Assembly (NCBI GenBank): GCA_012839805.1
Contig: DUMU01000028.1
Location: 1-58,507, forward strand
Direction: 5' to 3'
DNA length: 58,507 nt
Origin: Bacillota bacterium
GTDB lineage: Bacteria > Bacillota > Limnochordia > Limnochordales > DUMU01
The notes under the pieces are model-generated. The model saw only the letters and a program-made list of their open reading frames with translations. It was not told where the DNA came from and did not search any database. Below are positions 5,925 to 58,507 of the stretch, piece after piece. Position 1 is the first letter of the stretch, and every line of letters begins with the position of its first letter. The translations under genes and the position numbers were made by a program.

Positions 5925-7253
5925 ATGTCAATTGCGTCATTCGGGCGTAGGCTCACCCCAAAAGCCGTCTTGGCCGTCATCCTGGTTGTCTTGGCACTCG
6001 TGACCTCCGTCGCTCCCGTCCTCGCGAAGACTGTGATCACCGTAGCTACCTACGGTGACATCATCACCCAAAAAGACACATGGGAGGACATCAAAAAGAC
6101 CTTTGAGGCCCAACACCCCGACTATGAACTGTCTTACACCGTTATTCCCTACAATGACTACATCACGAAACTGACCACTCTGTTTGCCACGGGCAAATAT
6201 CCTGATGTTTTCCAGTGCTGGGCTCAATACAAGCCGCGCTGGGCAGAGGACGGAATCCTTCTGGATGTAACCTCGTTCGTCAACAACAGCAAGCGACTGG
6301 ATTTGAACGACTACTTCCCGGTGGCTTGGGAGGCCACCAAGTACAAAGGCAAGTACTATGGTACGCCGCACGACTTCAACTCCGAAGTATACTATCTCAA
6401 CGTGAACATGGCCGAGGAAGCGGGACTGCCAATCCCGTCCCTGGATTGGGACTGGCAGGACTTCGAACGTTATGTAGCCAAGATGACCCGGCCGGACGAA
6501 GGAATCTTCGGAACCAACCATTCGCTGCAGTGGGGAGGCGGGCTCCAGTGGGTCTACAACTTCAGCGGTCACTACTGGCTGACCGACAATAACACCAAAG
6601 CGGCGGTTGCGGATCCGAAGGTTATAGACATGGTCAAGTTCTGGTTGAAGCTGACTTTTGACTTGAAGGCCGCTCCCTCGGTCCTAAAACCAGCACAGGG
6701 CGGAAAAGATGAGTTTGGCGGCTATTTCGGCGTCTGGCAAGGTTGGGTCGCGTATCTGGACCAACTGTCCAAAGCCGAGCAGAGTGCCCGGGCGGCGGGT
6801 AAGGACTTCTGGGAGTGGACGATGCTTCCTTACCCCGCCGGGCCGGTGGCGCAGCGCAACTTCGCCCAGGGCCACATGTGGAGCATCTACGCCAAGCATC
6901 CGAATCCCCAAAAAGCTTGGGTCCTGGCGGAGTGGCTGGCCAGTTACGAAGGTCAGAAAGTTTGGGCCCGCAAGCACGCCTTCCAGCCACTGATGCCCAA
7001 GACCGAGCTTTGGGAGAGTTACCTCAGCTTCCTGCCGAAGGAGAAATACCAGAAAACCGCGGCCTTCTTACTCGGATATCTGTATCCCAAGTACGCGCTG
7101 AACTTCCCGTACTGGCCGACCTATCCGGAGATCCAGCAGGTCTGGACCCAGGCGATGTCCGATATCTTCTTCGGGCAAAAGTCGCCTGACACCGTGCTGC
7201 AAAACGCCAACGCCCGGATGGAGGCGATCCTGGTGCGCCGCGGCGCGAAATAG
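5925..7253 (+). CDS. Extracellular sugar-binding protein (ABC family 1), orphan
   Basis: A 442-residue family 1 solute-binding protein for a sugar ABC transporter. Residues 1-35 form a signal peptide ending near VLA-K; no lipobox cysteine is evident. Typical features follow: VITVATYGDIITQKDTWEDI, FEAQHPDYELSYTVIPYNDY, KLTTLFATGKYPDVFQCWA, and a Trp/Tyr-rich cleft region. The strong ribosome site AAGGAGGGG precedes ATG 5925. No permease or ATPase genes follow: the next gene is argH on the other strand. It must either work with a transporter encoded elsewhere or act as a sugar sensor. It is probably controlled by the GntR/LacI-type regulator just upstream. Confidence 0.88.
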   Translation: MSIASFGRRLTPKAVLAVILVVLALVTSVAPVLAKTVITVATYGDIITQKDTWEDIKKTFEAQHPDYELSYTVIPYNDYITKLTTLFATGKYPDVFQCWAQYKPRWAEDGILLDVTSFVNNSKRLDLNDYFPVAWEATKYKGKYYGTPHDFNSEVYYLNVNMAEEAGLPIPSLDWDWQDFERYVAKMTRPDEGIFGTNHSLQWGGGLQWVYNFSGHYWLTDNNTKAAVADPKVIDMVKFWLKLTFDLKAAPSVLKPAQGGKDEFGGYFGVWQGWVAYLDQLSKAEQSARAAGKDFWEWTMLPYPAGPVAQRNFAQGHMWSIYAKHPNPQKAWVLAEWLASYEGQKVWARKHAFQPLMPKTELWESYLSFLPKEKYQKTAAFLLGYLYPKYALNFPYWPTYPEIQQVWTQAMSDIFFGQKSPDTVLQNANARMEAILVRRGAK

Positions 7254-7409: not shown

Positions 7410-8882
7410 CTAGTCCTCTTTCCCCACCTGGCCTCTCTCCAGGAGCGAACTGGCCGCGGCGAGCTCCTGCCGGAAGGGCTCATACCCGGTGGACCCCGGA
7501 GCGCGGCGCGCCGCTACCACGTTCCGCAGGGCGAGGGCCTCAAACACGTCCGGCTGGATGAGCTGGGCAGCACCCGCGCCCACCAACCCCCGCAGTTCAT
7601 CCAGGGAAAGATCCTCGAGCCGGCACCCCTTCTCCAGGCAGTAGCGCACGGCGCGGCCCACTGCTTCGTGGGCCCTTCGAAATGGCATCCCTTTCCTCAC
7701 CAGGTAATCTGCCAGGTCGGTAGCGTTCAGAAAGCCGCCAGACGCCGCTTCTTCCATCCGTTCCGTTCGCCAGCGGGCGGTGGCCAGCATGGGCGCAAGC
7801 AGCCGCAAACTCCCCAGCACCGTATCGACCGCGTCGAAGAGCGCTTCTTTGTCTTCCTGCAGATCCTTGTTGTATGCGAGCGGCAACCCCTTGCAGACGG
7901 TTAACACTGCCAGCAGGTCGCCGAAAACCCGGCCGGCCTTTCCCCGTACCAGTTCCGCCCCGTCCGGGTTCTTCTTTTGCGGCATGATGCTCGACCCGGT
8001 TGAGTACGAGTCAGAGAGTTCAACAAAGCTGAACTCGCTGCTCGACCAGAGCACTATCTCCTCTGCCAGCCGGCTCAGGTGCATCATGATGATGGAGAGA
8101 TCCGATAGCGCCTCCACCACATAGTCCCGGTCGCTCACCGCGTCCAGGCTATTCTCGCTGATCCGGGAGAAGCCGAGCTCACGGGCGACCCACTCCCGGT
8201 CCACCGGGTAGGGAACTCCGGCCAGCGCCCCGCTCCCTAAGGGACAGGCGTCCGCCCGGCGCAGGCAATCTGCCAGTCGCTGCCGATCCCGCTCCAGCAT
8301 CCAGAAGTAAGCAAGAAGGTGATGGCCGAGCAACACCGGCTGCGCCCGCTGCAAGTGGGTATAGCCGGGCATGATGGTCTCACCGTATTGCTTGGCCAGC
8401 TCAACGAGCACCCGCTGCAGTTCCCGGACCGCCTCGTCGACCCCGCCCGGTCCGGCCAGCGCTTCCTTTAGATAGAGCCGGGTGTCCACCTGCACCTGGT
8501 CGTTCCGGCTACGGGCAGTGTGCAGGCGCTTGCCCGCTTCCCCTACCCGCTCCACCAACCAGGCTTCGACCAGCGTATGTATGTCCTCCGGCTCTTCCGG
8601 CTCGTGCGGTCCGGCCACGGCGGACTCCCACGTTGAACCTGCCTCGGGCCAGCGCAACCGGCCACTTTCCAGATCCGCCCGGATCGCTTCCAGGCCGGCC
8701 ACGATTCGCTCGGCCTCCTCCTCAGGGATAATGCCCTGCCTCCCCAGCATCCGCGCGTGAACTATGCTCGCCCGAAGGTCCTGCCGCCACAGCCGCCGGT
8801 CGAACCGGTAAGAGTTCTGGAAACGAGCGAGGATCTTGGCGATCTCACCGGCGAACCGCCCGCCCCAAAGCTTGGTCTCCAC
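7410..8882 (-). CDS. argH: Argininosuccinate lyase
   Basis: Catalyses the last step of arginine synthesis, splitting argininosuccinate into arginine and fumarate; cytosolic homotetramer. The 490-residue product begins VETKLWGGRFAG and carries the fumarase/aspartase signature GSSIMPQKKNPD, plus RSRNDQVQVDTRLYLKEAL and TEPYTHLQ-type helix (GYTHLQRAQPVLLGHHLLAY). The GTG at 8882 is chosen because homologs begin at this LWGGRF motif and AAGAAGGTGAG lies just upstream; the frame itself extends to 8945. It sits 132 bases downstream of argG on the same strand and is probably co-transcribed. Confidence 0.95.
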   Translation of the reverse strand: METKLWGGRFAGEIAKILARFQNSYRFDRRLWRQDLRASIVHARMLGRQGIIPEEEAERIVAGLEAIRADLESGRLRWPEAGSTWESAVAGPHEPEEPEDIHTLVEAWLVERVGEAGKRLHTARSRNDQVQVDTRLYLKEALAGPGGVDEAVRELQRVLVELAKQYGETIMPGYTHLQRAQPVLLGHHLLAYFWMLERDRQRLADCLRRADACPLGSGALAGVPYPVDREWVARELGFSRISENSLDAVSDRDYVVEALSDLSIIMMHLSRLAEEIVLWSSSEFSFVELSDSYSTGSSIMPQKKNPDGAELVRGKAGRVFGDLLAVLTVCKGLPLAYNKDLQEDKEALFDAVDTVLGSLRLLAPMLATARWRTERMEEAASGGFLNATDLADYLVRKGMPFRRAHEAVGRAVRYCLEKGCRLEDLSLDELRGLVGAGAAQLIQPDVFEALALRNVVAARRAPGSTGYEPFRQELAAASSLLERGQVGKED

Positions 8883-10517: not shown

Positions 10518-12353
10518 ATGATCACCAGCGCTCGCCTCGCCGCCAGGGCCGATAGCGCCCTCGACCCCGACGCCGGGGCCGGCGAAGTCTCTCTACCTCT
10601 TGTCATAGCCGTCGACATCGGCACTACCCATTGCCGGGCGCAGGTCTTCGACCGCCTGCTCCAGCCGTTACCCGGCTTCTACGTCACCCAACCGCAGCCA
10701 GTAGTCGTGCAGTCGGACCGGGCGGAAATCGATCCCGAAGCCGCGCTCCTCGTGCTGGTCGACGTCCTGGAGCAGCTCCTTGCCCGGTTCAACCCCGCGC
10801 TCTCCCCTGAGCGGCTCCCCATCGTCGCCGTGGGGGTCTCGGCGCTCTGGCACTCCCTCGTCGGTGTGGACCGGGACGGATACCCGGTCACCCCCTGTCT
10901 GCTCTGGCCGGATCGCCGTAGCAGCCCCCAGGCCGAACGGCTACGCCGCCAGCTGGATCCTGATGAGTACCATCGCCGCACCGGAGCGTTCTTCCATCCC
11001 AGCTTCTCCGCCCCCCAGATCCTCTGGTGGCGGGAGAACGCCCCCGATCGCTTCCGACAGGTAGCCCGCTGGCTGACCCTGGCCGAGTACTTTTATCTCC
11101 GGCTTTTCGGTCGCACGGCCACCAGCTTCTCCCTGGCCTCGGGAACCGGTCTCCTCGATCAGGAAACACTCGGTTGGTATGAGCCGTTCCTCGCCCGGAT
11201 CGGCGTTTATCCCGAACAGCTATCCCCCATCGGCGAGGTGGACTCGGTCATGAGCGGCCTGCGTTCTCCCTTCGCCGAACACCTTTCCCGTCTCGCCGGC
11301 ACCCCCTTCCTGCTCCCGGCAGGGGACGGTGCCTGTGACAACCTGGGCGCGCATGCTTTGAGCCCCCGGCGATGGGCATTGATGGTGGGGACGAGCGCGG
11401 CCCTGCGGGCGATCGTGCCGGCCCGGGCGCTACCTACGCCGCCTGCCCCGCCGGCACCCGGCTCGGCCCCCAGGTCCGGTCCTGAACTGGGCGCCGGCCC
11501 AGGTGGCCACGGCCCGCGCGCCGGCTCGAACGCTGAGCCGAGCGCCGGTCCTAGCCGCCCGTATCTTCCGAACCTCTTCTTCTACCGGCTGCTGCGAGAC
11601 CAGCTGGTGGTCGGCGGCGCGCTCAGTACCGGCGGTAACCTGATCGAGTGGCTCCGTCGTACGCTCCTTCTTCCCGGTGACCCGGAGCTGCTCCAGGAGG
11701 AGCTGGCGAGTCTCGCCAGCACCGCGCCTGCCGCCCACGGCCTGCACGTCGTTCCCGACTGGGGCGGGCGGCGTAGCCCCGATTGGCCTACCCATTCCCC
11801 CGGCGGAATCATCTCCGGGCTCACTCTCTCCACCCGGCCCATCGAGATCCTGCAGGCCTGCCTGGAGGGGGTCGGTTACCGGCTGGCCGTTGTCTACGAG
11901 CAGTTGCAAAAGGAGCTCCGCGAGCAGCTGCTCAACCCCGCCATCATCTCTGCGACTACCCCGGTCGCCACGGCCGCCGGTACCCCCGCCACTGCTACCG
12001 CCGCCGCCGCCACTGCCGCCTCCCCCGCTACCGCCATCACCGCCGCCGCCGGCACCGCTACCGCCGCCCCCCTCGCCCCCGCTCTGGTCGCCACCGGCGG
12101 GGCGCTCGCCCGCTGGCCGGTCTGGGGGCAGATCCTCGCCGACCTCCTCGGGGTACCCATCACGGTGGCCGGCAGTTCCGAAACAGCATTGCGGGGAGCA
12201 GCGCGTCTTGCCCTGTGGGCGAGCGGTAACCTTCGCGACCTCTTCGGCGAGCAGGAACTCCCGCCCCCGGCCGGCACCACCTTCACCCCGGACCCCGCCC
12301 GGCATCGTGCCTACCGGTCGAAGGTTCAAGATACCGCCAGCCTGCGCCGATGA
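10518..12353 (+). CDS. FGGY-family carbohydrate kinase (gluconokinase/xylulokinase-like)
   Basis: A 611-residue ATP-dependent sugar kinase of the FGGY family. The N-terminal phosphate-1 loop is VIAVDIGTTHCRAQVFD; GVGVSALWHSLVGVD-type and LLWPDRRSS segments follow; the C-terminal half has GGALSTGGNLIEWLRR, EGVGYRLA and ATGGALARWPVWGQILADLL. The overall pattern is closest to gluconokinase-like members, but the substrate is not certain. Family members have about 490-520 residues. The extra length is two low-complexity inserts: Pro/Gly/Ala-rich near residues 300-350 and Ala/Thr-rich near 478-520. ATG 10518 is preferred over TTG 10509 because GGAG stands 9 bases before it. Confidence 0.85.
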   Translation: MITSARLAARADSALDPDAGAGEVSLPLVIAVDIGTTHCRAQVFDRLLQPLPGFYVTQPQPVVVQSDRAEIDPEAALLVLVDVLEQLLARFNPALSPERLPIVAVGVSALWHSLVGVDRDGYPVTPCLLWPDRRSSPQAERLRRQLDPDEYHRRTGAFFHPSFSAPQILWWRENAPDRFRQVARWLTLAEYFYLRLFGRTATSFSLASGTGLLDQETLGWYEPFLARIGVYPEQLSPIGEVDSVMSGLRSPFAEHLSRLAGTPFLLPAGDGACDNLGAHALSPRRWALMVGTSAALRAIVPARALPTPPAPPAPGSAPRSGPELGAGPGGHGPRAGSNAEPSAGPSRPYLPNLFFYRLLRDQLVVGGALSTGGNLIEWLRRTLLLPGDPELLQEELASLASTAPAAHGLHVVPDWGGRRSPDWPTHSPGGIISGLTLSTRPIEILQACLEGVGYRLAVVYEQLQKELREQLLNPAIISATTPVATAAGTPATATAAAATAASPATAITAAAGTATAAPLAPALVATGGALARWPVWGQILADLLGVPITVAGSSETALRGAARLALWASGNLRDLFGEQELPPPAGTTFTPDPARHRAYRSKVQDTASLRR

Positions 12354-24597: not shown

Positions 24598-26460
24598 GTG
24601 AAAGTCTTGGAGTGCCCGCGCCCCGAATACCCGCGCCCGGATTTCGTACGCCATGACTGGCTAAACCTCAATGGCGAATGGGAGTTCGCCTTCGACGACG
24701 AGAACCGGGGGCTCAAGGAGAGGTGGTACGCCGGCACTGCCACCGGCGCCACCTTCCCCTTGCGTATCCGCGTCCCCTTTGCCTACCAGACCCCCCTTAG
24801 CGGAATCGGCGACCGCAGTTTTCACGATGTAATCTGGTATCGACGACAGGTAAGAATTCCGCGTGACCCCGCCTGGCAAGATAAGCGGGTCTTGCTCCAC
24901 TTCGGTGCCGTGGATTACGCCGCCACCGTCTGGGTGAACGGCCAGCCGGTCGCCCACCATGAAGGCGGCCACACCCCGTTCACCACCGATATAACCGATG
25001 CCCTCAGCGTCCCGCATGGCAGCACCGAAGCTCCCGTCGCCACCATCGTGGTCCGGGCTTGGGATCCGTCCGCGAACCTGGAAATCCCCCGCGGCAAGCA
25101 GTACTGGAAAGTAGACTCGGAAGGCATCTTCTACACCCGCACCTCCGGCATCTGGCAAACGGTCTGGCTAGAGCCCGTCTCCCCCGTCGCGTACCTGCAG
25201 CGGGTGCAGCTCACCACCGAGCCGGGCGGAGGGAAGGTTCGAGTGCGGGCCTGGATCGCCGGGGACTCCAGCCGGACCGATGCCGACCTCCGCCTGGAAA
25301 TCGAGGCCCGGTATAACGGTCGAACGGTAGCCACTGCCCTGGCCACGGCCGGCATGGCGGCTCCGTCCGGTACAACTGCCGTATCCTCCGTCCCCGCCGC
25401 CCCCACCGCTTCCGACCCCTGGCTGAGGCTCGATGCTGAACTCATTCCCACGGAGATCCATCTTTGGAGTCCGGAGACGCCCAACCTCTACCAGCTGACC
25501 TACCGCCTTTACCTGGGTGACCGGGTTCTCGATACGGTCAACGGGTACATGGGCCTGCGGTGGGTGAGCATCGAGAACGGCCGGGTCTGCCTGAACGGTA
25601 AACCGTACTATATGAAGCTGGTGCTGGACCAGGGATATTGGCCGGAAGGCCTGCTCACAGCCCCTTCCGACGAAGCGCTCCGGGCCGACATCGAATGGGG
25701 CAAGGCCTTTGGATTCAACGGGTGCCGCAAGCACCAGAAGGTCGAAGACCCCCGCTTCCTCTACTGGGCGGATCGGCTTGGTTACTTAGTCTGGGGCGAG
25801 ATGGCCAACGCCTATTGCTATAGCGAGGATTACGCTACCCGAATCCTCACCGAATGGCTGCAGGTGATCGCCCGGGACTACAACCACCCCTGCATCATCG
25901 CCTGGGTGCCGATCAACGAAAGCTGGGGCTTAAGCGACCTGGCTCATGACCGCCGCCAGGTGGACCACCAGCTCTCCCTCTACCATACCCTCAAGTCCCT
26001 CGATCCCACCCGCTTCGTTATGTCCAACGACGGCTGGGAGCATGCCCGTTCGGATCTGCTGACCGTTCACGATTATAGCGGTCCCGAAGAGCTTTCCCGC
26101 CGCTACCAATCCCTCGATGAAGTGCTCCGCTTCCGCCCCGGCAACCGGAGCCTCTTTGCGCCCGGCACCACCTACTCCGGTGAACCGTTGCTGGTCACCG
26201 AGTACGGCGGTATCGGCTTCCGGAAGGGGCAGCAAGAGCGGGGCTGGGGCTATGGAAACCTGGCGGCCAGCGAGGAGGAGCTACTGGAGCGCTACCGCGC
26301 CAGCACCGAAGCCCTCTTCGCCAGCCCGCTGGTTCAAGGCATCTGCTACACCCAGCTGGCCGACGTGGAGCAGGAGATCAACGGGCTGCTCACTTACGAT
26401 CGGAAGCCCAAGGTCGACCCGGCGCTGATCAAAGCCATCAACGACCGGCGGCCGGCCTAG
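24598..26460 (+). CDS. Glycoside hydrolase family 2 (beta-galactosidase/glucuronidase-like)
   Basis: A 620-residue GH2 enzyme without signal peptide, so cytosolic. It has the sugar-binding jelly roll (NLNGEWEFAFDDENRG, FHDVIWYRRQVRIP, LHFGAVDYAATVWVNGQPVA, EGGHTPFTTDIT), an Ig-like sandwich, and the TIM barrel. The likely acid/base is Glu441 in VPINESWG and the nucleophile Glu535 in LVTEYGGIGF. FNGCRKHQKVEDPRFLYWAD replaces the usual R-x-H-x-Y-P-type segment with RKHQK. Substrate specificity cannot be told. An Ala/Thr/Ser-rich insert lies near residues 245-270. GTG 24598 has AAAGGAG about 12 bases upstream. Possible substrates include beta-galactosides, glucuronides or mannosides. Confidence 0.88.
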   Translation: MKVLECPRPEYPRPDFVRHDWLNLNGEWEFAFDDENRGLKERWYAGTATGATFPLRIRVPFAYQTPLSGIGDRSFHDVIWYRRQVRIPRDPAWQDKRVLLHFGAVDYAATVWVNGQPVAHHEGGHTPFTTDITDALSVPHGSTEAPVATIVVRAWDPSANLEIPRGKQYWKVDSEGIFYTRTSGIWQTVWLEPVSPVAYLQRVQLTTEPGGGKVRVRAWIAGDSSRTDADLRLEIEARYNGRTVATALATAGMAAPSGTTAVSSVPAAPTASDPWLRLDAELIPTEIHLWSPETPNLYQLTYRLYLGDRVLDTVNGYMGLRWVSIENGRVCLNGKPYYMKLVLDQGYWPEGLLTAPSDEALRADIEWGKAFGFNGCRKHQKVEDPRFLYWADRLGYLVWGEMANAYCYSEDYATRILTEWLQVIARDYNHPCIIAWVPINESWGLSDLAHDRRQVDHQLSLYHTLKSLDPTRFVMSNDGWEHARSDLLTVHDYSGPEELSRRYQSLDEVLRFRPGNRSLFAPGTTYSGEPLLVTEYGGIGFRKGQQERGWGYGNLAASEEELLERYRASTEALFASPLVQGICYTQLADVEQEINGLLTYDRKPKVDPALIKAINDRRPA

Positions 26461-51681: not shown

Positions 51682-51771
51682 ATGACAGTAACGACGAATT
51701 ACAAAAAAGATTCAGGAAGTATCCGCGTGTCGGAGGGAAGGGAAGGCGCGTCGACGAAGGGGAGCGTGTGA
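51682..51771 (+). CDS. Possible 29-residue leader or small peptide
   Basis: ATG 51682 follows AAGGAG, although the spacing is only 2-3 bases. The peptide is Lys/Ser/Gly-rich and starts MTVTTNYKKDSGSIRVSEG. Its TGA stop (51769-51771) ends 2 bases before the ATG of the nucleotidyltransferase, so it could couple translation of that gene. It has no cysteine and does not resemble the precursor peptide further down. It may be chance. Confidence 0.3.
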   Translation: MTVTTNYKKDSGSIRVSEGREGASTKGSV

Positions 51772-51773
51772 GG

Positions 51774-53012
51774 ATGGAACCTCAAATCGCTCACCATCAG
51801 GAAACGGACCGACCGGCCAAAGGTCATCCAGAGTGGTTCCCTTGGTGCCTACCATGTGAGGCCCAGAGCGATCTTCCTGCCGAGGACGTCAGTGAAAGCG
51901 CCCACCAACTTCTGGCCTGGGCCGTTCGTCAGAGAACAAGCACCATTGTCAGTTACAACTTGTTGCGTGCGCCCTTCGCAATCCGGCCGGATGTACGGGC
52001 ACTGTGCTGGGCCTATACAGCAAATGCCCGAAGAGTCTGGGCTGCCTACGTGCGGCAGGTAGGGGCAGTAGCAGATACTCTGTCTCAAGCCGGGTGTAAC
52101 TGGGTCCTCCTCAAAGGAGCTGCGTTTGCAGCCACAGCTTATCCGGAACCGTGGTTACGAATCTGCGGTGATATCGACGTACTGGTGGCAGCAGATGAGC
52201 TGGAGTTGGCCCATGAAGCTCTAGTCCAGCAAGATTTTCGGCAGGACCAGGAATATGATATTCGAGCTTTGGCCAGAAAGGTTCGGGCGGGGCGCGCCCG
52301 GCTCCAACATTTACCCCCCTACTTCCGGCCTACGGGGGATTCGATCCTACCTGGCATCACAGTGGAAGTTCACCACCGATTGACTACAGCCGCAGAGCCT
52401 TATAGCCTTCCAGGAGACGATGTCCTTTCGGGAGCTATGCTCCTACAGATTGGCGAGGGACCCTTTCGGATTCCCAGACCCGAGATGACCCTCCTTGTTG
52501 CGGTGAGTCACGCTTACAGGCATGCCCGTTCGCTGAATGCGATCATTCAGGGTGAGGATTTCCGTATGGGTCGTTTTGTGGATGTGGTGCAGTTGTTGCG
52601 GCACTATGGTCACTGTTTGAACGGAGAGGAAGTCTTAAAAGTCGCCCAGAGGAATCGCTTGGAGCCGGCGTTGGCCTTTGTACGAACGGTAGTTGATGAA
52701 TGCTTTGGTCGGCAACCCTGGCCCGCGGCGTTCGACCGTTTACAGGATCATCCTAGCGTGGCGCAGACAATCGCAGACGCGACTTTATTCGACCATGAAG
52801 TGGTGATGGGGCAGTGGTCTTTGCCTCCGGCCCAACGGTTTTTTCAGACAGACACCGAACGGTGTTTGGAAGCTCTTCTCGCTTTGTATTCTTACCTACG
52901 TGCGAATAGGAAGCAGGAGATCGCTGCGGAGGACCAACACTTGGACATTGGAGGGCAGGAATTCATTGGGCCTTTTAACCCGGCCTCCCGGTTTTTCGGA
53001 ATGGGAGGATAG
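51774..53012 (+). CDS. Nucleotidyltransferase family protein (NTP_transf_5-like) of RiPP cluster
   Basis: A 412-residue protein. Residues about 100-200 have the minimal nucleotidyltransferase pattern WVLLKGAAFAATAYPEPWLR followed by GDIDVLV, with the catalytic pair Asp133/Asp135. VEVHHRL farther on fits the third carboxylate region. This family (uncharacterised nucleotidyltransferase) recurs in RiPP clusters beside PqqD-like proteins, where it is thought to tailor the peptide or a side group with a nucleotide. ATG 51774 is chosen with AAGGGGAG 9 bases upstream; the frame itself extends to 51576. It lies two bases before the next gene. Confidence 0.8.
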   Translation: MEPQIAHHQETDRPAKGHPEWFPWCLPCEAQSDLPAEDVSESAHQLLAWAVRQRTSTIVSYNLLRAPFAIRPDVRALCWAYTANARRVWAAYVRQVGAVADTLSQAGCNWVLLKGAAFAATAYPEPWLRICGDIDVLVAADELELAHEALVQQDFRQDQEYDIRALARKVRAGRARLQHLPPYFRPTGDSILPGITVEVHHRLTTAAEPYSLPGDDVLSGAMLLQIGEGPFRIPRPEMTLLVAVSHAYRHARSLNAIIQGEDFRMGRFVDVVQLLRHYGHCLNGEEVLKVAQRNRLEPALAFVRTVVDECFGRQPWPAAFDRLQDHPSVAQTIADATLFDHEVVMGQWSLPPAQRFFQTDTERCLEALLALYSYLRANRKQEIAAEDQHLDIGGQEFIGPFNPASRFFGMGG

Positions 53013-53014
53013 CC

Positions 53015-53383
53015 ATGGACAACGGACTGGTACGGTTCTATGGTTGTTGTTTGGCCCCGGAGCTGGGTCAGCTACGTCCTTCGGGTGGAGAAATTAGGGA
53101 CAACGCGACATTGCACATCGATCCGACACTACAGGAAACAGAAGACCAAGAAGGCTGGACCCACCTCACGAAACCTGGGTGGTTCTTTGGGCTGACCGTC
53201 CAGACGTCGCTGTGGCAGGGCCTCAGAAGAACTTCGGGCCAAACCGTTGGGGATGTGCTCCGCAAGTTCACCCAGGCAGATGGACAGTGCTACCGATCGG
53301 TACTGAGCGCTATTCGTCTCTTAGCGGCATGGCGAGTTTTGTGTGTGACGACCTCCTCCCCGACCTCTGACAACGCCGAGTAG
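53015..53383 (+). CDS. PqqD-like (RiPP recognition element) small protein, divergent
   Basis: A 122-residue protein with GGGAGG before ATG 53015. Residues about 45-105 (LTKPGWFFGLTVQTSLWQGL, SGQTVGDVLRKFTQADGQ, SAIRLLAAWRVLCV) match the PqqD order: a hairpin ending in L-x-x-x-x-x-x-W, then T-V-x-D-V and a final helix. The usual Asn after the Leu is replaced. PqqD domains bind RiPP leader peptides and present them to enzymes. The relationship is by eye and moderately secure. It is immediately downstream of the nucleotidyltransferase and may guide that enzyme. Confidence 0.55.
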   Translation: MDNGLVRFYGCCLAPELGQLRPSGGEIRDNATLHIDPTLQETEDQEGWTHLTKPGWFFGLTVQTSLWQGLRRTSGQTVGDVLRKFTQADGQCYRSVLSAIRLLAAWRVLCVTTSSPTSDNAE

Positions 53384-53583
53384 CAATCACCAGAAGCTAA
53401 GCCCAGAAATCCGACCTATCATGCGCTCGAGTGACAATAAGCTCTAGCGGGGGCGAGACGCGACGAAAAAGGAGATTCATGCGGGAACTGGAACTGTGCC
53501 AATGGATTCGTTGTATCTAGTAGCTGCTGTACATCTCTTGGAAACCACGACGAGCATCGTTGAAAGGAGGCGCGTACTATACA

Positions 53584-53874
53584 ATGACCCCGGAGAATAT
53601 TGCCATCGACAAACAGTTTGTGCTGCGGCAAGACGTCCTTGTTGATCAAATCGGTGACGAATGTGTTGTCTTTGATCCCACCACTAAAATGGTATTCACT
53701 GTAAACCAAACGGGAGCTATGATCATTAACAAGCTAAGGCAACCGCAGTTGATAGCTACCCTAGTTGAATACCTGGCCTCGTGTTCTTCTGCATCCCGCG
53801 ACGTCATTCTTAGGGACTGCGAGGCCTTCCTTGCGATACTGCTTGACAAGGGGTTGGCTACTTGTGTTGAATAA
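53584..53874 (+). CDS. PqqD family leader-binding protein
   Basis: A 96-residue PqqD/RRE domain. The pattern is clear: VLVDQIGDECVVFDPTTKMV (paired strands), FTVNQTGAMIINKLRQPQLI, ATLVEYLASCSSASRDVILR, and DCEAFLAILLDKGLATCVE. It should bind the leader peptide of the precursor at 57971. AAAGGAGG lies 14 bases before ATG 53584; TTG 53560 has no ribosome site. In the 200-base gap before it, a 13-codon frame (53479-53520) with a good AAGGAG is present, perhaps a leader peptide. The gene overlaps the downstream protease gene. Confidence 0.85.
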   Translation: MTPENIAIDKQFVLRQDVLVDQIGDECVVFDPTTKMVFTVNQTGAMIINKLRQPQLIATLVEYLASCSSASRDVILRDCEAFLAILLDKGLATCVE

Positions 53875-54499
53875 AGCGACTCTCCTAAAACACTCATCTC
53901 GTCGGCTCATTCATACCATGTTGAGCAACTGGGGTGTAGTCGCACTAACCTACAGAGGGTGCAGTATGTCCCCCTTGTTCTGGGAGGGACAACGAGTGCT
54001 TGTAACACCACTCCGTCAAGATCCAATAGAAGTTGGCGATTGCGTGGTTTATTGGAGCGATGTACAACAGTGGTTTGTCTTACACCGCGTCGTCAGTGTG
54101 AGCCAACAGAATGATAGACGGGTCATAGTGACTAAAGGAGACGCCTTGCCTTACCAAGACCCTCCAATAGATGACAATCACCTGCTGGGACGGGTGTACA
54201 CCACTGATCTACTGTTCCGGAGAAGCCTTCCGAAGCTTCGCAGCGGACTCACAATACGAGAAGAGGAAGGTGGTGGATTACTCTACGATGTAGCAACTGC
54301 TGACCTCAAGGTTCTAAACCGCGCGGGATTCGTGGTTTGCCGGTGCCTAACGCAGGGAATGGCGCCGGCAGACATAGTTGTGGAGTTAGCGAAATCCTTT
54401 CCTGGGGTTAGTGCTGAAAGGCTAGTTGGAGATTTGGATGCTTTTCTGAGTAAGATGTCAGAACGTGGATTGGTTCAATGGGAGGATGTTGGATGCTAA
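53864..54499 (+). CDS. S24/S26 signal-peptidase-like protease fused to PqqD domain
   Basis: About 211 residues in two domains. Residues 25-115 match the SipW/ER-type signal peptidase fold: YRGCSMSP with nucleophile Ser34, VGDCVVYW, FVLHRVV with His74 in place of the usual Lys, and VTKGDAL with Asp93. Residues about 125-211 are a PqqD-like leader-binding domain (GGGLLYDVATADLKVLNRAG, APADIVVELAKSFPG, LDAFLSKMSERGLVQW). No membrane helix is present, unlike normal signal peptidases. The likely job is cutting the leader from the modified peptide inside the cell. GTG 53864 overlaps the pqqD stop and has AAGGGG upstream; TTG 53867 and ATG 53918 are alternatives. Confidence 0.8.
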   Translation: MLNKATLLKHSSRRLIHTMLSNWGVVALTYRGCSMSPLFWEGQRVLVTPLRQDPIEVGDCVVYWSDVQQWFVLHRVVSVSQQNDRRVIVTKGDALPYQDPPIDDNHLLGRVYTTDLLFRRSLPKLRSGLTIREEEGGGLLYDVATADLKVLNRAGFVVCRCLTQGMAPADIVVELAKSFPGVSAERLVGDLDAFLSKMSERGLVQWEDVGC

Positions 54500-55539
54500 G
54501 TGCGCCGATTGTCGTCTCTATAGCGATCACTTCTAGGTGTAACCTTAGGTGCCTTCATTGTTCGGCATCGGCTGGGGAGGGGCTGGGCGTACCCGATTTA
54601 GGGCGGGAGGAGTGGCTGGAAGTGATTCGGGAGTTGGCTCGCAGCCATGTTTTTGAGATCGTGCTGACTGGCGGTGAGCCACTTATGGTGCCATGGTGGG
54701 TTGACATTGTTAAGGAAGCTGTAAGAGCGGGTATGAGATGTAGTCTGAATACCAACGCTCTTATGGTGACCGAAGCGGTTGTATCAGTCCTTCGGGACAT
54801 TCCGGGCCTTGGTCTGATAACTGTCAGCTTTGATGGCGATGATAGGGACAGTTATGAGAGTCTGCGAGGACAAGGTACATTCGAAAGAGCCGTAGCCGGG
54901 ATAAAGAAACTCGTTAATGCAGGCTTGAGAGTTAGGTTGTTTACCGTGGTAAGTAGGTTGAATGTAGGGCGGCTCCATGGCATAGTTGAGAACGCCAAGG
55001 AACTGGGTGTCGATAGCATCGCCTTAAATTGCTTTTGTCCAGTGTCGGTAGGAAAGAGGCATGAAGCAAAGCTTAGTCTGTCGACAGACGAAGAAGTGCG
55101 TGCTTACCAAGTGGTTTATGCTTTAAGAGAAACGTTTGGCTCGTTTCTAGATGGCTCCTTTGTGAGTAGAGCTTTGCTGTATAAGAAATGGGAGGAAAGA
55201 CACCAGGGTGAGAGGCTCGGTCCGCCAGCCAGGCTGGGTTGTGGCGCTGGGTGGACCACGGTCTCTATCCGGCCAGATGGGGAAATCGTGCCGTGCGATA
55301 TGATGTGGGATGCTCCCTGTGGGCATGTGCTTAGAGACGGCTTTGCAAAAGTATGGAGATCATCTGAACTCCTCGGAAGAATGCGATCCCTCCGCAATAT
55401 GACTACAGCCGACATTGAGGTTTGCCGCCGGTGCCGGGTGAATGACTTGTGTTCGGGAGGCTGTAGAGCGGTGGCGTGGGCCCATGGGGATTTGTTTGGT
55501 GGTGGCCATGGTTGCCCAATTGCTGCTGGAGTTTACTAA
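54493..55539 (+). CDS. Radical SAM/SPASM peptide maturase A
   Basis: A 348-residue radical SAM enzyme. The SAM-cluster motif is Cys16-x3-Cys20-x2-Cys23 (TSRCNLRCLHC). EIVLTGGEPLM is the GGE loop, and ITVSFDGDDRDSYESLRGQG is typical of peptide-modifying members. The C-terminal SPASM region has auxiliary-cluster cysteines: LGCGAGWTTVSIRPDGEIVP, CDMM, CGHV, VCRRCRVNDLCSGGCRA and GCP. Such enzymes form thioether, C-C or C-O crosslinks in RiPPs. GGGAGG stands 7 bases before ATG 54493, which overlaps the protease stop. It probably acts on the precursor with a PqqD partner. Confidence 0.9.
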   Translation: MLSAPIVVSIAITSRCNLRCLHCSASAGEGLGVPDLGREEWLEVIRELARSHVFEIVLTGGEPLMVPWWVDIVKEAVRAGMRCSLNTNALMVTEAVVSVLRDIPGLGLITVSFDGDDRDSYESLRGQGTFERAVAGIKKLVNAGLRVRLFTVVSRLNVGRLHGIVENAKELGVDSIALNCFCPVSVGKRHEAKLSLSTDEEVRAYQVVYALRETFGSFLDGSFVSRALLYKKWEERHQGERLGPPARLGCGAGWTTVSIRPDGEIVPCDMMWDAPCGHVLRDGFAKVWRSSELLGRMRSLRNMTTADIEVCRRCRVNDLCSGGCRAVAWAHGDLFGGGHGCPIAAGVY

Positions 55540-55560
55540 ACGCTTGGAGGCTTGCGTACG

Positions 55561-56643
55561 ATGAGTAATCGTTTAGACGAGTTGATTCTTCATGTTACGA
55601 ATAGGTGCAACCTCCGCTGTAAGCATTGTTGGGTGGATGCCGGAGGTGGCAGGCTCGAGGAGCTGGAAACTTCGGACTGGAGGGAGATTGTAAGAAAAGG
55701 CAGCGAGCTAGGCGTACGTGCGGTGAAGGTTACTGGGGGTGAACCCCTGATCAGGAATGATGTGCCTGACCTATTAGGGTACATCCGAGAGTGTGGGATG
55801 ACCCCCGTACTGGAGACGAATGGCAGCCTCGTAACCGACGACATTGCATGCAAGATCGCGAAAGCGCAGCCACTAGTGGTAGCTGTTAGTCTTGACAGTC
55901 CGGATCCTGAGTTCCATGATTGGTTTCGTCAAAGTCCCGGCGCCCACGCTGCTGCTCTCCGCGGTGTGAGGGCCTTGCTGTCAGCTGGAGTCTCCGTTCA
56001 GATTGTGTGCAGTTTATGCCAGCAAAATGTTAGCGCGTGGCGGGAGATGGTAGAGATGGCGGACGCTCTTGGAGTAAACTCAATCAAGCTCAATCCAGTG
56101 ATGCCATTTGGTAGAGCTATGCTTCAGGATGGTATCCAGTTGCTCTCTGTCGAGAATATCATAAGCCTGCATAAAGAAGTAGTAAAGTACGTTAAGTACG
56201 CGCAGATAAAGGTGGGAGTGTCGTACCCGATTCCGCTCGCATTCCGCGGGCTCGATGCCCTTCGGAGGGCCCAACCGGAGTGTAACATCTGTCATAGGCT
56301 AGGCGTCCTGTGCGATGGTAAGTTATCGATTTGCGGAATAGGGCAGACAACGCCTGGATTAGTGCTCGGTCAGTGGGGGCGGACAGAGTTGGAGGAAGCA
56401 ACAGCAGTGCTACCGAGTGACGAAGATCTCATGCGGAGCCTTACAGGCGTGTGTGCTCTCTGCATTCATCGAAAGTTATGCCTTGGCTTCTGCCGCGCAT
56501 TGGCGTTTGCAGTGAGCGGGAATCTAGGTGCGCCATATTTTGTGTGCCAGGAGGCATATAGGCTGGGCTTTTTCCCGACAAACAGGCTAGCCCAAGGTAG
56601 AGCGGCCGCAGGGGACGAGGCGGGCCCCGGCAACTTCCGGTAG
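55561..56643 (+). CDS. Radical SAM/SPASM peptide maturase B
   Basis: A 360-residue enzyme of the same class but clearly different from maturase A. The motif is Cys16-x3-Cys20-x2-Cys23 (TNRCNLRCKHC), with VKVTGGEPLI and VAVSLDSPDPEFHDWFRQSP. The SPASM cysteines are in CNICHRLGVLCDGKLSICGI and VCALCIHRKLCLGFC. GGAGG is 10 bases before ATG 55561; TTG 55552 is too near it. Two distinct maturases in one operon suggest two types of crosslink or two successive steps on the peptide. The C-terminus ends in a GC-rich Ala/Gly-rich tail. Confidence 0.9.
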   Translation: MSNRLDELILHVTNRCNLRCKHCWVDAGGGRLEELETSDWREIVRKGSELGVRAVKVTGGEPLIRNDVPDLLGYIRECGMTPVLETNGSLVTDDIACKIAKAQPLVVAVSLDSPDPEFHDWFRQSPGAHAAALRGVRALLSAGVSVQIVCSLCQQNVSAWREMVEMADALGVNSIKLNPVMPFGRAMLQDGIQLLSVENIISLHKEVVKYVKYAQIKVGVSYPIPLAFRGLDALRRAQPECNICHRLGVLCDGKLSICGIGQTTPGLVLGQWGRTELEEATAVLPSDEDLMRSLTGVCALCIHRKLCLGFCRALAFAVSGNLGAPYFVCQEAYRLGFFPTNRLAQGRAAAGDEAGPGNFR

Positions 56644-56676
56644 GGACAACCCACTAGTTGTGCAGGAGGCATGCGT

Positions 56677-57639
56677 GTGGGCACGATCGTTGTTTCAGCA
56701 GCTGATATCCGGGTTGGGCTACAGACCCCGTGGGACTGGGATATTGAGCTTCCACCCGCGTGGCAGACTCTGCCAGGCGCGAAGCCAGACCTGATGCTTA
56801 CTGTTAAAGTCTCTCCTCAGCCCAGCCAGGTAGCAGTAGACGAACGGTACATGCACTATCTTGCAGAGCGATATGAACGTTTGCTCGGCAGCAATATTCG
56901 ACCCGAAGCCAGAGAGGAGTGCCTAAGGCGACTCATTTCAAATATGTTATGCCATTTCGGGGCTAATGGTTTCAGTCCCTGGATGGACCGGGTCATCTTG
57001 GCACGTGATACATCGTTTTTTGCCATAGGTGATACATGCGTTTTCGTTCCTCATCGTTGTGAGGAAGGCGAGGCTTATGTTGGACCCACCTCATATATGC
57101 AAATGTTTTATGGTGACTCACGTCCCTTGATTCCGCTGGCCCTCTTCGCCGCCGGTTTTGATGGTCGCTTCTTGTGTATACATGGGGCAGGCGTAGTGGA
57201 TGCCAAGGGCTGCTATGTATTTTATGGGCCAAGTGGTGCTGGGAAGTCTACGGTCTGCAAGTTGTCCGCGGGCATGCAAGTGTTAAGCGACGAATTGGTG
57301 GTTATCCGATCGAGTTCAGACTGTATGATGGCTACGGCTTCGCCGTGGGTACGCAGCTCCTGTTGGTACGCAGCACAGCAGAACTGGTACCCAATAAGAG
57401 CGTTGGTCTCGCTTAAGAAAGCTGAACGTACACGGCTTGTTCCGCTGTCGCCCACTGCAGCACTTGTGCAGGTCGCAACGTGTATGTTCGAGATCGCTTA
57501 CAATGTCGTAAGCGATCTGAATTTGCACAAAAGGGCGTTCGAGAACGCTTGCAGACTGGTGAAAGCGACCAGTTGCTGGCAACTCGAGTTTACGCGCGAT
57601 GGGACGATATGGGACGAAATCAGGAGGGTCTTGCCATAG
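56677..57639 (+). CDS. HPr kinase-like P-loop protein of RiPP cluster
   Basis: A 320-residue protein related to the kinase domain of HPr kinase/phosphorylase. The core is IHGAGVVDAKGCYVFYGPSG with the Walker A GPSGAGKST near residues 184-192, then VLSDELVVI, the position of the catalytic acidic pair. The N-terminal 150 residues are cluster-specific. Homologs in some lasso clusters phosphorylate Ser of the peptide; here the core peptide is rich in Thr and Ser. GTG 56677 is preferred because AGGAGG is 7 bases upstream; ATG 56671 is one base from it. Confidence 0.75.
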   Translation: MGTIVVSAADIRVGLQTPWDWDIELPPAWQTLPGAKPDLMLTVKVSPQPSQVAVDERYMHYLAERYERLLGSNIRPEAREECLRRLISNMLCHFGANGFSPWMDRVILARDTSFFAIGDTCVFVPHRCEEGEAYVGPTSYMQMFYGDSRPLIPLALFAAGFDGRFLCIHGAGVVDAKGCYVFYGPSGAGKSTVCKLSAGMQVLSDELVVIRSSSDCMMATASPWVRSSCWYAAQQNWYPIRALVSLKKAERTRLVPLSPTAALVQVATCMFEIAYNVVSDLNLHKRAFENACRLVKATSCWQLEFTRDGTIWDEIRRVLP

Positions 57640-57653
57640 CATGAGATGATTCT

Positions 57654-57781
57654 CTAGGAGACCGTCCAAGAAATGGCCTTTACTCTGTGCTGATCACTAC
57701 TTGGGGTATGGTTACAGGCCTGGTAGCCCAAGCGGTGATATGGCTAGACACACAAGGACTAATTCTTAGACTGTCTCCTAG
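57654..57781. mobile_element. MITE-like remnant with 17-base inverted ends
   Basis: CTAGGAGACCGTCCAAG (57654-57670) and the reverse complement of 57765-57781 (CTAGGAGACAGTCTAAG) match at 15 of 17 bases. The 128-bp unit has no coding capacity. The GAGAC-x-GTC-x-AAG ends resemble IS256/Mutator-type termini, so it is probably a deletion derivative of such an element. No clear target duplication is visible. Confidence 0.5.
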
Positions 57782-57813
57782 CCAATTGTTGAGAGATGCT
57801 TGATATGTGAGTT

Positions 57814-57851
57814 CTGCACGACGGGGGTCCGGGGTAAAAGTAGTCGTGCAG
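57814..57851. promoter_or_regulatory. Hairpin upstream of precursor gene
   Basis: CTGCACGAC (57814-57822) and GTCGTGCAG (57843-57851) are perfect 9-base arms around a 20-base loop. It lies 120 bases before the precursor start and could be an operator, an attenuator or an mRNA stabiliser. No T-run follows. A weak -10 (TATACC near 57890) is downstream of it. Confidence 0.4.
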
Positions 57852-57970
57852 TTGTAAGGCCGTCACTGTACGGATGCAGCGTTGTGTGGTATACCATGCG
57901 AAGGATTAGTACTTGGCGGGCACCGGGGAGGTATGGAGGTATGAACCTAAGTGGAAAGGAGGGTAGGGAC

Positions 57971-58132
57971 ATGGATCAGAAGACGGAGGTCCAGTACGAG
58001 GCCCCTGCCATTGTTGAAGTTGGGGAGCTGGCTGATGAAGTGCTTGGGGCAACGTGCCGGTCGCCTGGTACCACTCCTACGGGAAGGACCGCCGTGTGTA
58101 ACAACCCAGGCACAACTCCGACTAACCCATAG
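57971..58132 (+). CDS. RiPP precursor peptide with two-repeat core
   Basis: A 53-residue peptide with a strong AAAGGAGG 8 bases before ATG 57971. The leader MDQKTEVQYEAPAIVEVGEL has the Y-x2-P-x-(I/L)-x3-G motif recognised by PqqD-type domains. The core begins around GATC. It contains two copies of one unit: Cys29-RSPGTTPTG and Cys43-NNPGTTPTN, 14 residues apart, ending in Pro53. Each unit has one Cys and several Thr as possible acceptor and donor for radical SAM chemistry. It lies last in the cluster, separated from the kinase-like gene by a mobile-element remnant. Confidence 0.85.
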   Translation: MDQKTEVQYEAPAIVEVGELADEVLGATCRSPGTTPTGRTAVCNNPGTTPTNP

Positions 58133-58254
58133 TGGAGGACTCCCAGTGGATGTTACCCCGAGGTCAGAGCTATGAGCCAGCTGCTGTAAGGAGCTAAGGA
58201 CAACTCCCCGGTGCTCGCCAATACCACGAAAGAGGAGAGGGCGGAGAAGGCAAA

Positions 58255-58383
58255 ATGAGTCCATGCTACTACCCGCGGTACTTACTAGTGCGCTGGGTAG
58301 GCCCCGGGGCTGTCTTGAACGGAATGGCGCGTTCGCAACTTCTGAGATCATGTTGGCAGGCCCAGGACCAGTGCACAAATTGA
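58255..58383 (+). pseudogene. Gene start cut off by IS3-type insertion
   Basis: ATG 58255 follows GGAGAAGG at good spacing. The frame encodes 42 residues (MSPCYYPRYLLVRWVGPGAV and onward, Cys- and Trp-containing), and its stop codon TGA is the first three bases of the insertion sequence terminus at 58381. This strongly suggests an original longer gene interrupted by the element. The remainder should lie beyond the IS, outside this window. Its position directly after the precursor makes it a candidate cluster member such as a transporter or tailoring enzyme. No family is recognisable. Confidence 0.45.
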
Positions 58384-58507
58384 AGTGGACCCAGAAAACT
58401 GGGCACCGATCCGGGCCGTTTTAAGTTATAACTGAGCCATGAGGAAGAGGTATTCGCCAGAGTTCAAAGCCAGGGTTACGCTCGAATTGATCCGGGAGGA
58501 GAAGAGC
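58381..58507 (+). mobile_element. IS3-family insertion sequence, left end, cut by window edge
   Basis: The terminus starts TGAAGTGGACCCAGAAAACT, the form of IS3-family inverted repeats (TG start, GGACCC, then an inverted CCAG/CTGG pair). It is followed 58 bases later by the first codons of a transposase. The right end is outside the window, so target duplication cannot be checked. Confidence 0.75.
58439..58507 (+). CDS. IS3-family transposase OrfA, N-terminal fragment
   Basis: Twenty-three codons from ATG 58439 to the window end read MRKRYSPEFKARVTLELIRE and EKS. This is the standard beginning of the IS3-family OrfA helix-turn-helix protein. It is partial only because the window ends. It would bind the element ends and, after programmed frameshifting with OrfB, form the active transposase. 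Confidence 0.8.
   Translation, partial: MRKRYSPEFKARVTLELIREEKS

Follow-up and report, generated by a model that had tools for sequence, protein, structure and literature searches.

What does the run of genes at the end of a Bacillota contig make, and is the set of enzymes that it brings together one that has been described before? The window analyzed here is a stretch of 58,507 bp (DUMU01000028.1, contig C14 of the 2.78 Mb assembly GCA_012839805.1, completeness 96%), and the locus in question lies at 51,774-58,132 on the + strand, where eight intact open reading frames (ORFs) follow one another, with three junctions that overlap or are at most 2 nt apart and with Shine-Dalgarno-like sequences upstream of several of them. 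An earlier note, made from the DNA letters alone, had described this compact same-strand run and its ribosome sites as a cluster for a ribosomally synthesized and post-translationally modified peptide (RiPP), with two radical S-adenosylmethionine (SAM)/SPASM enzymes, three PqqD domains, a protease-PqqD fusion, a nucleotidyltransferase, an HPr-kinase-like protein and a small peptide; the named parts are present, on the + strand and at about that place, and we agree with the RiPP reading. Its further statement that no described RiPP class has this exact set does not hold, as the cassette is modeled in NCBIfam as SynChlorMet (Scm; TIGR04248 ScmD, TIGR04249 ScmC, TIGR04250 ScmE, TIGR04251 ScmF, and TIGR04252 ScmA), and the novelty of the set is further undercut by the match of its peptidase, RiPP recognition element (RRE), HprK and NTP transferase part to the core of the system for linear polyphosphorylated peptides (LPPs; PMC13381572). 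We consider the locus to be a RiPP operon of the Scm type, in a divergent and rearranged branch, with a probability of about 0.78. It is a divergent, low-GC Scm-type cassette on an LPP-type chassis, and its product is predicted to be a thioether-crosslinked phosphorylated peptide. What the DNA provides directly are the parts, their homologies, the motif layout and the low-GC island, from which we infer every chemical step.

The Radical_SAM domains of both enzymes score far over the cut-off of 29.5 bits (78.5 and 88.1 bits respectively). The first enzyme (rSAM1, ScmE-like, 348 aa, 54493..55539, +), with an ATG that overlaps the upstream stop, has ScmE as its best model (TIGR04250, 189 bits, next best 132), is 27-30% identical to ScmE proteins, and conserves the CxxxCxxC motif together with six auxiliary Cys. 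The second (rSAM2, ScmF-like, 360 aa, 55561..56643, +) has ScmF as its best model (TIGR04251, 247 bits, next best 134), is 32-37% identical to ScmF proteins and keeps all ten conserved Cys. In phylogenetic trees, rSAM2 falls in a well supported set of 13 (12 ScmF proteins and the enzyme of locus L012; 99/93), and is sister to the ScmF clade with support of 88/74 in one tree and 96/78 in others. Locus L012 (8033-9588; loci and contigs of our searches are numbered L and C) encodes a ScmF-like enzyme, a PqqD protein and two short YxxP peptides with a core of the RGCSGGNCCNGK type; no HprK, S26 or NTP transferase gene was seen in it, and it is possibly a simpler relative. Downstream of rSAM2 is an HprK-like kinase (ScmC/LppK-like, 322 aa, 56671..57639, +), whose best model is TIGR04249 ScmC, and whose alignment shows a Walker A motif (GPSGAGKST) as well as, from the HKDD set, conserved His, Lys, and first Asp residues.

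A scan of genome contigs with rSAM2 yielded a sample of at least 12 Scm loci, beyond which closer relatives may exist. Their hosts include Methanogenium, Methanospirillum, Methanoregulaceae, Chlorobium, Chlorobiaceae, Desulfobacterota, another deltaproteobacterium, Nitrospirae, Aminicenantes, Lentisphaeria, and an unclassified bacterium. Among the 12 matches listed, PqqD, ScmE, and ScmF are present in all (as judged with hidden Markov models (HMMs) built from some of these same loci), an HprK-like protein and a hit to an ATP-binding cassette (ABC) exporter in nine each, and an S26 signal peptidase I (SpI) and an NTP_transf_5 protein in seven each, several of the contigs ending early. Judged by the curated cut-offs, which its ScmD, ScmE, ScmF, and ScmC proteins all exceed, locus L177 of Chlorobium is a true Scm cassette, and it also contains S26, NTP_transf_5, and ABC genes. 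HMMs made from the Scm loci, with no window sequence in them, find the counterparts in the window with E-values of 5e-79 (ScmF), 3e-59 (ScmE), 4e-20 (HprK), 3e-17 (NTP transferase), 3e-14 (S26), and 6e-8 (PqqD), all of which are relative to the small set of window ORFs. The window thus resembles Scm in its two SPASM radical SAM enzymes, PqqD, HprK-like kinase and small Cys-containing YxxP precursor, and resembles the fuller Scm loci in having S26/SpI and NTP_transf_5 as well. It differs in that S26 is fused to PqqD, in an additional candidate RRE, and in a core with C-x3-G twice instead of many C-x2-G repeats. The earlier note had proposed to look for the same gene order in other genomes; the gene set is there in the fuller loci, and the S26-PqqD fusion was not seen in those read among the matches listed. 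Some Scm loci (L108, L106, and L177) contain two HprK-like paralogs, and the window kinase is nearer to one L108 copy (7534-8487) than to the other (phmmer E-values of 6.9e-15 vs. 7.7e-6).

The last gene of the cassette encodes the candidate precursor, a peptide of 53 aa (57971..58132, +) behind a strong Shine-Dalgarno sequence (aaaggagg), with an alternative ATG at 57941. It has the leader YEAPAIVEVG and the core GATC-RSPGTTPTGRTAV-C-NNPGTTPTNP, and it passes the lasso-leader model NF033521 (lasso_leader_L3) with 19.5 bits against a cut-off of 19. Across the 58.5 kb, a Shine-Dalgarno site followed by YxxPx[hydrophobic]xxxG marks this one plausible gene; elsewhere the pattern matches only a Pro/Arg-rich ORF at 25211-25375 (-). 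Absence of the precursor from homologous loci had been named as grounds for dismissing the cluster, and 10 of the 12 matches listed contain small ORFs that combine a Y/WxxP leader with Cys in the core, giving 14 precursor candidates. In these Scm peptides, Y/WxxPx[hydrophobic] is followed after 17-22 residues by the first Cys (20 in the window), the Cys are mostly 9-11 residues apart, and a GADC/GANC element, where there is one, has its Cys at Y+18 or +19, comparable to the GATC Cys at Y+20 in the window. The cores of the Chlorobium (L177) and Methanogenium (L104) cassettes contain six Cys. Of the 79 Cys in the 14 candidates, 61 have Gly at +3 and 14 at +4, against a Gly background of 18%, and both Cys of the window core carry Gly at +4, in two C-x3-G-T-T-P-T units 14 residues apart.

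This core leaves some room for a different product from the same chassis, in which the radical enzymes would act on Thr, Pro or Gly instead of making Cys thioethers, leaving C-C or ether crosslinks, epimers, or another modification there. SPASM maturases form several bond types, and the core in the window is rich in TTPT and has just two Cys (Cys29 and Cys43). The Scm cores, by contrast, are rich in Cys and have an almost constant C-x2-G unit, 75 of the 79 Cys in the matches listed having Gly at +3 or +4, and the window retains Cys-x3-Gly twice; we thus hold a non-thioether chemistry to be a possible, though not the favored, outcome. Sactipeptides and ranthipeptides, whose Cys thioethers are made by SPASM enzymes, likewise combine radical SAM maturases of this kind with a Cys-bearing core; the window departs from them in having a pair of maturases, tailoring genes of the HprK/NTP type, and separate RREs, and the AlbA, SkfB, and PapB models are not the closest to its enzymes.

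The leader also brings in the phosphorylated lasso peptides paeninodin and pseudomycoidin, which share with the window a [Y/W]xxPx[L/V/I] leader with a PqqD-like RRE, an HprK-type kinase and NTP_transf_5-type tailoring. If the cyclase and B2 protease were located past the contig end, with the radical SAM enzymes serving for tailoring, a lasso cluster would account for the match to NF033521, for the stand-alone PqqD protein scoring best against a lasso PqqD model, and for the HprK and NTP transferase genes, which occur in paeninodin-type clusters. The leader follows the lasso pattern YxxPxLxxxG, as YxxPxIxxxG, without its penultimate Thr, however, the residue at Y+15 being Val; the window lacks both a macrolactam cyclase and a B2 protease, as well as a C-terminal Ser, and its peptidase is of the serine SpI type. 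Across the 96%-complete assembly, the only PF00733 protein over cut-off is a 641-aa AsnB and not a lasso cyclase (the Scm loci were not scanned), and there is no PF13471 B2 protease, in agreement with the earlier note, which had seen neither. A lasso product therefore appears very improbable.

The remaining genes make up the chassis. The operon starts with an NTP_transf_5 (PF14907) nucleotidyltransferase-like protein, the counterpart of LppN and PsmN (412 aa, 51774..53012, +; 130 bits, cut-off 31.2), which is the sole copy in the genome and whose G-D-I-D motif is intact in the aligned active-site columns. Beginning 2 nt past its stop is a protein of 122 aa (53015..53383, +) without a Pfam match even at E<=10. 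Its AlphaFold (AF2) model (mean pLDDT 68) places beta strands before three helices in an RRE-like manner, and Foldseek returns PqqD (5sxy) as the top match, with TigE (8vpo), PbtF, and TbiB1 also among the best, with a probability of ~1 and E-values of ~0.02-0.04. Since the model is RRE-like, this PqqD-like winged helix is likely a third RRE, with moderate, fold-level support; of the three PqqD domains proposed earlier, the other two have profile matches. One is the discrete RRE in the ScmD/LppB position (PqqD family, 96 aa, 53584..53874, +; PF05402 44.0 bits, cut-off 23.4), which scores best against lasso_PqqD_Strm (26.2 bits) and has TfuB1 as its best PDB match. The other forms the C-terminus of the SipW/archaeal-type signal peptidase (S26, 211 aa, 53864..54499, +), whose start overlaps the PqqD gene; one protein thus matches both TIGR02228 (archaeal-type signal peptidase I, 56.7 bits, cut-off 51.85) and PF05402 (27.4 bits, cut-off 23.4), and the Ser (GCSMSP), His (LHR), and KGD boxes of the peptidase are all present in the alignment. 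The profile searches that the earlier note had recommended thus place PqqD, S26, NTP_transf_5, and radical SAM over cut-off in the window proteins. In 398 genomes of the phylum, all other S26 matches span the peptidase portion only, with no RRE fusion. A different fusion is found in the Aminicenantes locus L110 (12832-14868), where a single protein of 678 aa combines S26 peptidase and NTP transferase.

The LPP core consists of a SipW-like SpI, a discrete RRE, an HprK kinase, an NTP transferase, and an MsbA-like exporter (Popov et al., 2026, Nat Commun, PMC13381572). The window has the first four and a YxxP leader, so that it could be read as an LPP cluster proper with the radical SAM genes as incidental neighbors. 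Yet the operon encloses the rSAM genes, whose junctions overlap or are tight, many phyla have this pair together with this chassis, and the LPP leader YxxPxVLxHQxIxFETxxS is not matched, as the window leader YEAPAIVEVGELADEVLGATC retains only YxxPxI and lacks the HQxIxFETxxS part. We therefore regard a pure LPP cluster as very unlikely and retain the Scm-type operon. Radical SAM terms are absent from the LPP paper, the peptidase is not described there as an RRE fusion (PMC13381572), and no MsbA-like exporter is seen in the window, where the contig ends inside an insertion sequence (IS). Chassis of this kind are also present in other loci of the phylum. Loci L222 and L223 (the latter from the same class, on a 7.6-kb contig) are compact and encode one divergent radical SAM enzyme alongside an HprK-like protein, PqqD, S26, and NTP_transf_5, with YVKP-leader peptides that resemble precursors (L223 5312-5497 and L222 10280-10444). 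Locus L227 encodes a peptide that bears the LPP FET motif (YVKPMIINETEIQFETLVS; 6994-7122, -) and has a radical SAM gene nearby, and a second YTKP peptide (11536-11709, -), together with two S26, two HprK-like, and two PqqD proteins and an ABC protein. In these three loci the chassis is paired with a single, more distantly related radical SAM enzyme and with YxxP peptides, which suggests that chassis and maturases are exchanged between loci.

Several observations weigh against assigning the locus to Scm. All of the ScmE-, ScmF-, ScmC-, and ScmD-like proteins are well under the curated cut-offs (400 for both ScmE and ScmF; 41.8 bits vs. 125 for ScmC, and 22.4 bits vs. 100 for ScmD), so that strict Scm membership would overstate the case. 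The long-branched rSAM1 shows no clear grouping with ScmE: it is unplaced in the first tree, joins the enzymes of L222, L223, and L227 at 93/93 in another, and its union with the ScmE clade is neither supported nor rejected by the approximately unbiased (AU) test (p=0.19). The second Asp of the kinase HKDD set is replaced by Glu. The peptide has no match to the ScmA model TIGR04252, its core has only two Cys with a spacing of 14 instead of the usual 9-11, and an HMM of the Scm leaders places it 3rd among the 1248 ORFs of the window and 2nd among 2001 when compared with shuffles, a weak signal; because this rank is modest, its identity as the precursor rests jointly on position, motif, Shine-Dalgarno sequence and NF033521. 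The LPP kinase LppK adds up to four phosphates to one Ser and did not accept Thr in its place (PMC13381572), and the window core has a single Ser, Ser31. Finally, Scm cassettes are named in databases, and our literature search found no paper naming "SynChlorMet," none combining HprK, radical SAM and a precursor peptide, and none on the product of any Scm cassette.

The genomic setting bears on whether the operon is still functional. GC content is 51-55% from 52 kb onward vs. ~65% across the remaining window, none of the other 72 genomes of the class (73 including its own) contains an rSAM2 homolog at E<=1e-30, and the cassette was thus probably acquired horizontally. Close relatives of rSAM2 (E<=1e-40) are likewise absent from 299 genomes of the phylum; the matches on plasmids and on viral contigs were generic radical SAM proteins only, and HprK had no match on plasmids. 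The boundaries are narrower than the 51682-58383 given in the earlier note: 51682 belongs to an open frame that extends upstream of the actual gene start at ~51774, and the 42-aa ORF at 58255-58383 was rejected as a gene or precursor, as it stops at an IS3-type boundary and has no family match. The contig ends 375 bp past the precursor, within the left end of an IS3-like element (58381..58507, +), and any downstream cassette genes are unassembled here. The same 125 bp IS end also closes contig C26 (C26:55987-56111), and a genome search with it for a downstream continuation returned only that contig end and a relict, with no bridge; the relict is a partial copy of 41 bp with 90% identity on C37 (C37:42076-42116). 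Scans for tRNA, Rfam families, repeats, and promoters added nothing.

No exporter is seen in the window, and as the contig terminates in the IS element just past the precursor, an exporter may be missing from the assembled sequence. A search of the genome with a Scm exporter gave many ABC matches, the most similar being L206 (C5:26711-28498; 34% identity over nearly the whole length). This ABC half-transporter has an internal TAA, lower GC and a housekeeping neighborhood, is unlinked to the cassette, and is perhaps an orphan or decayed exporter. The IS adjoining the precursor, the lack of a visible exporter and the interrupted ABC gene would fit a decaying, IS-damaged remnant that makes no product; the eight intact ORFs, the Shine-Dalgarno-like sequences before several starts and the conserved catalytic motifs argue otherwise, and we consider decay unlikely.

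For an active Scm-type operon, we propose that the YEAPAI leader would be gripped by the stand-alone PqqD, the PqqD tail of the peptidase, and probably the 122-aa protein, while the two SPASM radical SAM enzymes would modify the Cys/Gly/Thr-rich core, in which Cys29 and Cys43 may become thioether-linked to nearby residues in C-x(2-3)-G-[ST] units. The HprK-like kinase would then place one or more phosphates on core Ser/Thr, with Ser31 as the only Ser available, and the NTP_transf_5 protein may extend or cap the phosphate with a nucleotidyl group or a hexose. A crosslinked and phosphorylated peptide, as the earlier note proposed, is thus probable from the enzyme families, and its "nucleotide" decoration is one option: PsmN, the homolog from the pseudomycoidin lasso cluster, has been associated with the addition of a hexose to phospho-Ser (PMC9266682), and LppN has no visible effect (PMC13381572). 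In the LPP system, LppS (SpI) frees the core, with cleavage in vitro only in the presence of the RRE protein LppB (PMC13381572). By analogy, the SipW-type serine peptidase would remove the leader, with its fused RRE presenting the substrate, and an ABC exporter such as is present in most of the Scm loci listed would export the product. We see an even chance that this represents a RiPP class uniting SPASM radical crosslinking, (poly)phosphorylation, nucleotidyl or sugar capping, and leader removal by a serine signal-peptidase-type enzyme with a fused RRE.

If this is true, the Scm cassettes of archaea and many bacterial phyla would form the radical-SAM branch of a superfamily that also includes LPPs and phosphorylated lasso peptides. 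Four or five of the Scm parts correspond to the LPP chassis, whose roles have recently been examined (those of the kinase, leader peptidase, and RRE being shown), which would leave chiefly the core and the pair of SPASM enzymes to be explained. The peptidase-RRE fusion resembles a natural single-chain LppS-LppB pair, and could aid structural work on RRE-guided leader cleavage. An orphan gene set of archaea and bacteria would thereby become directly testable by co-expression.

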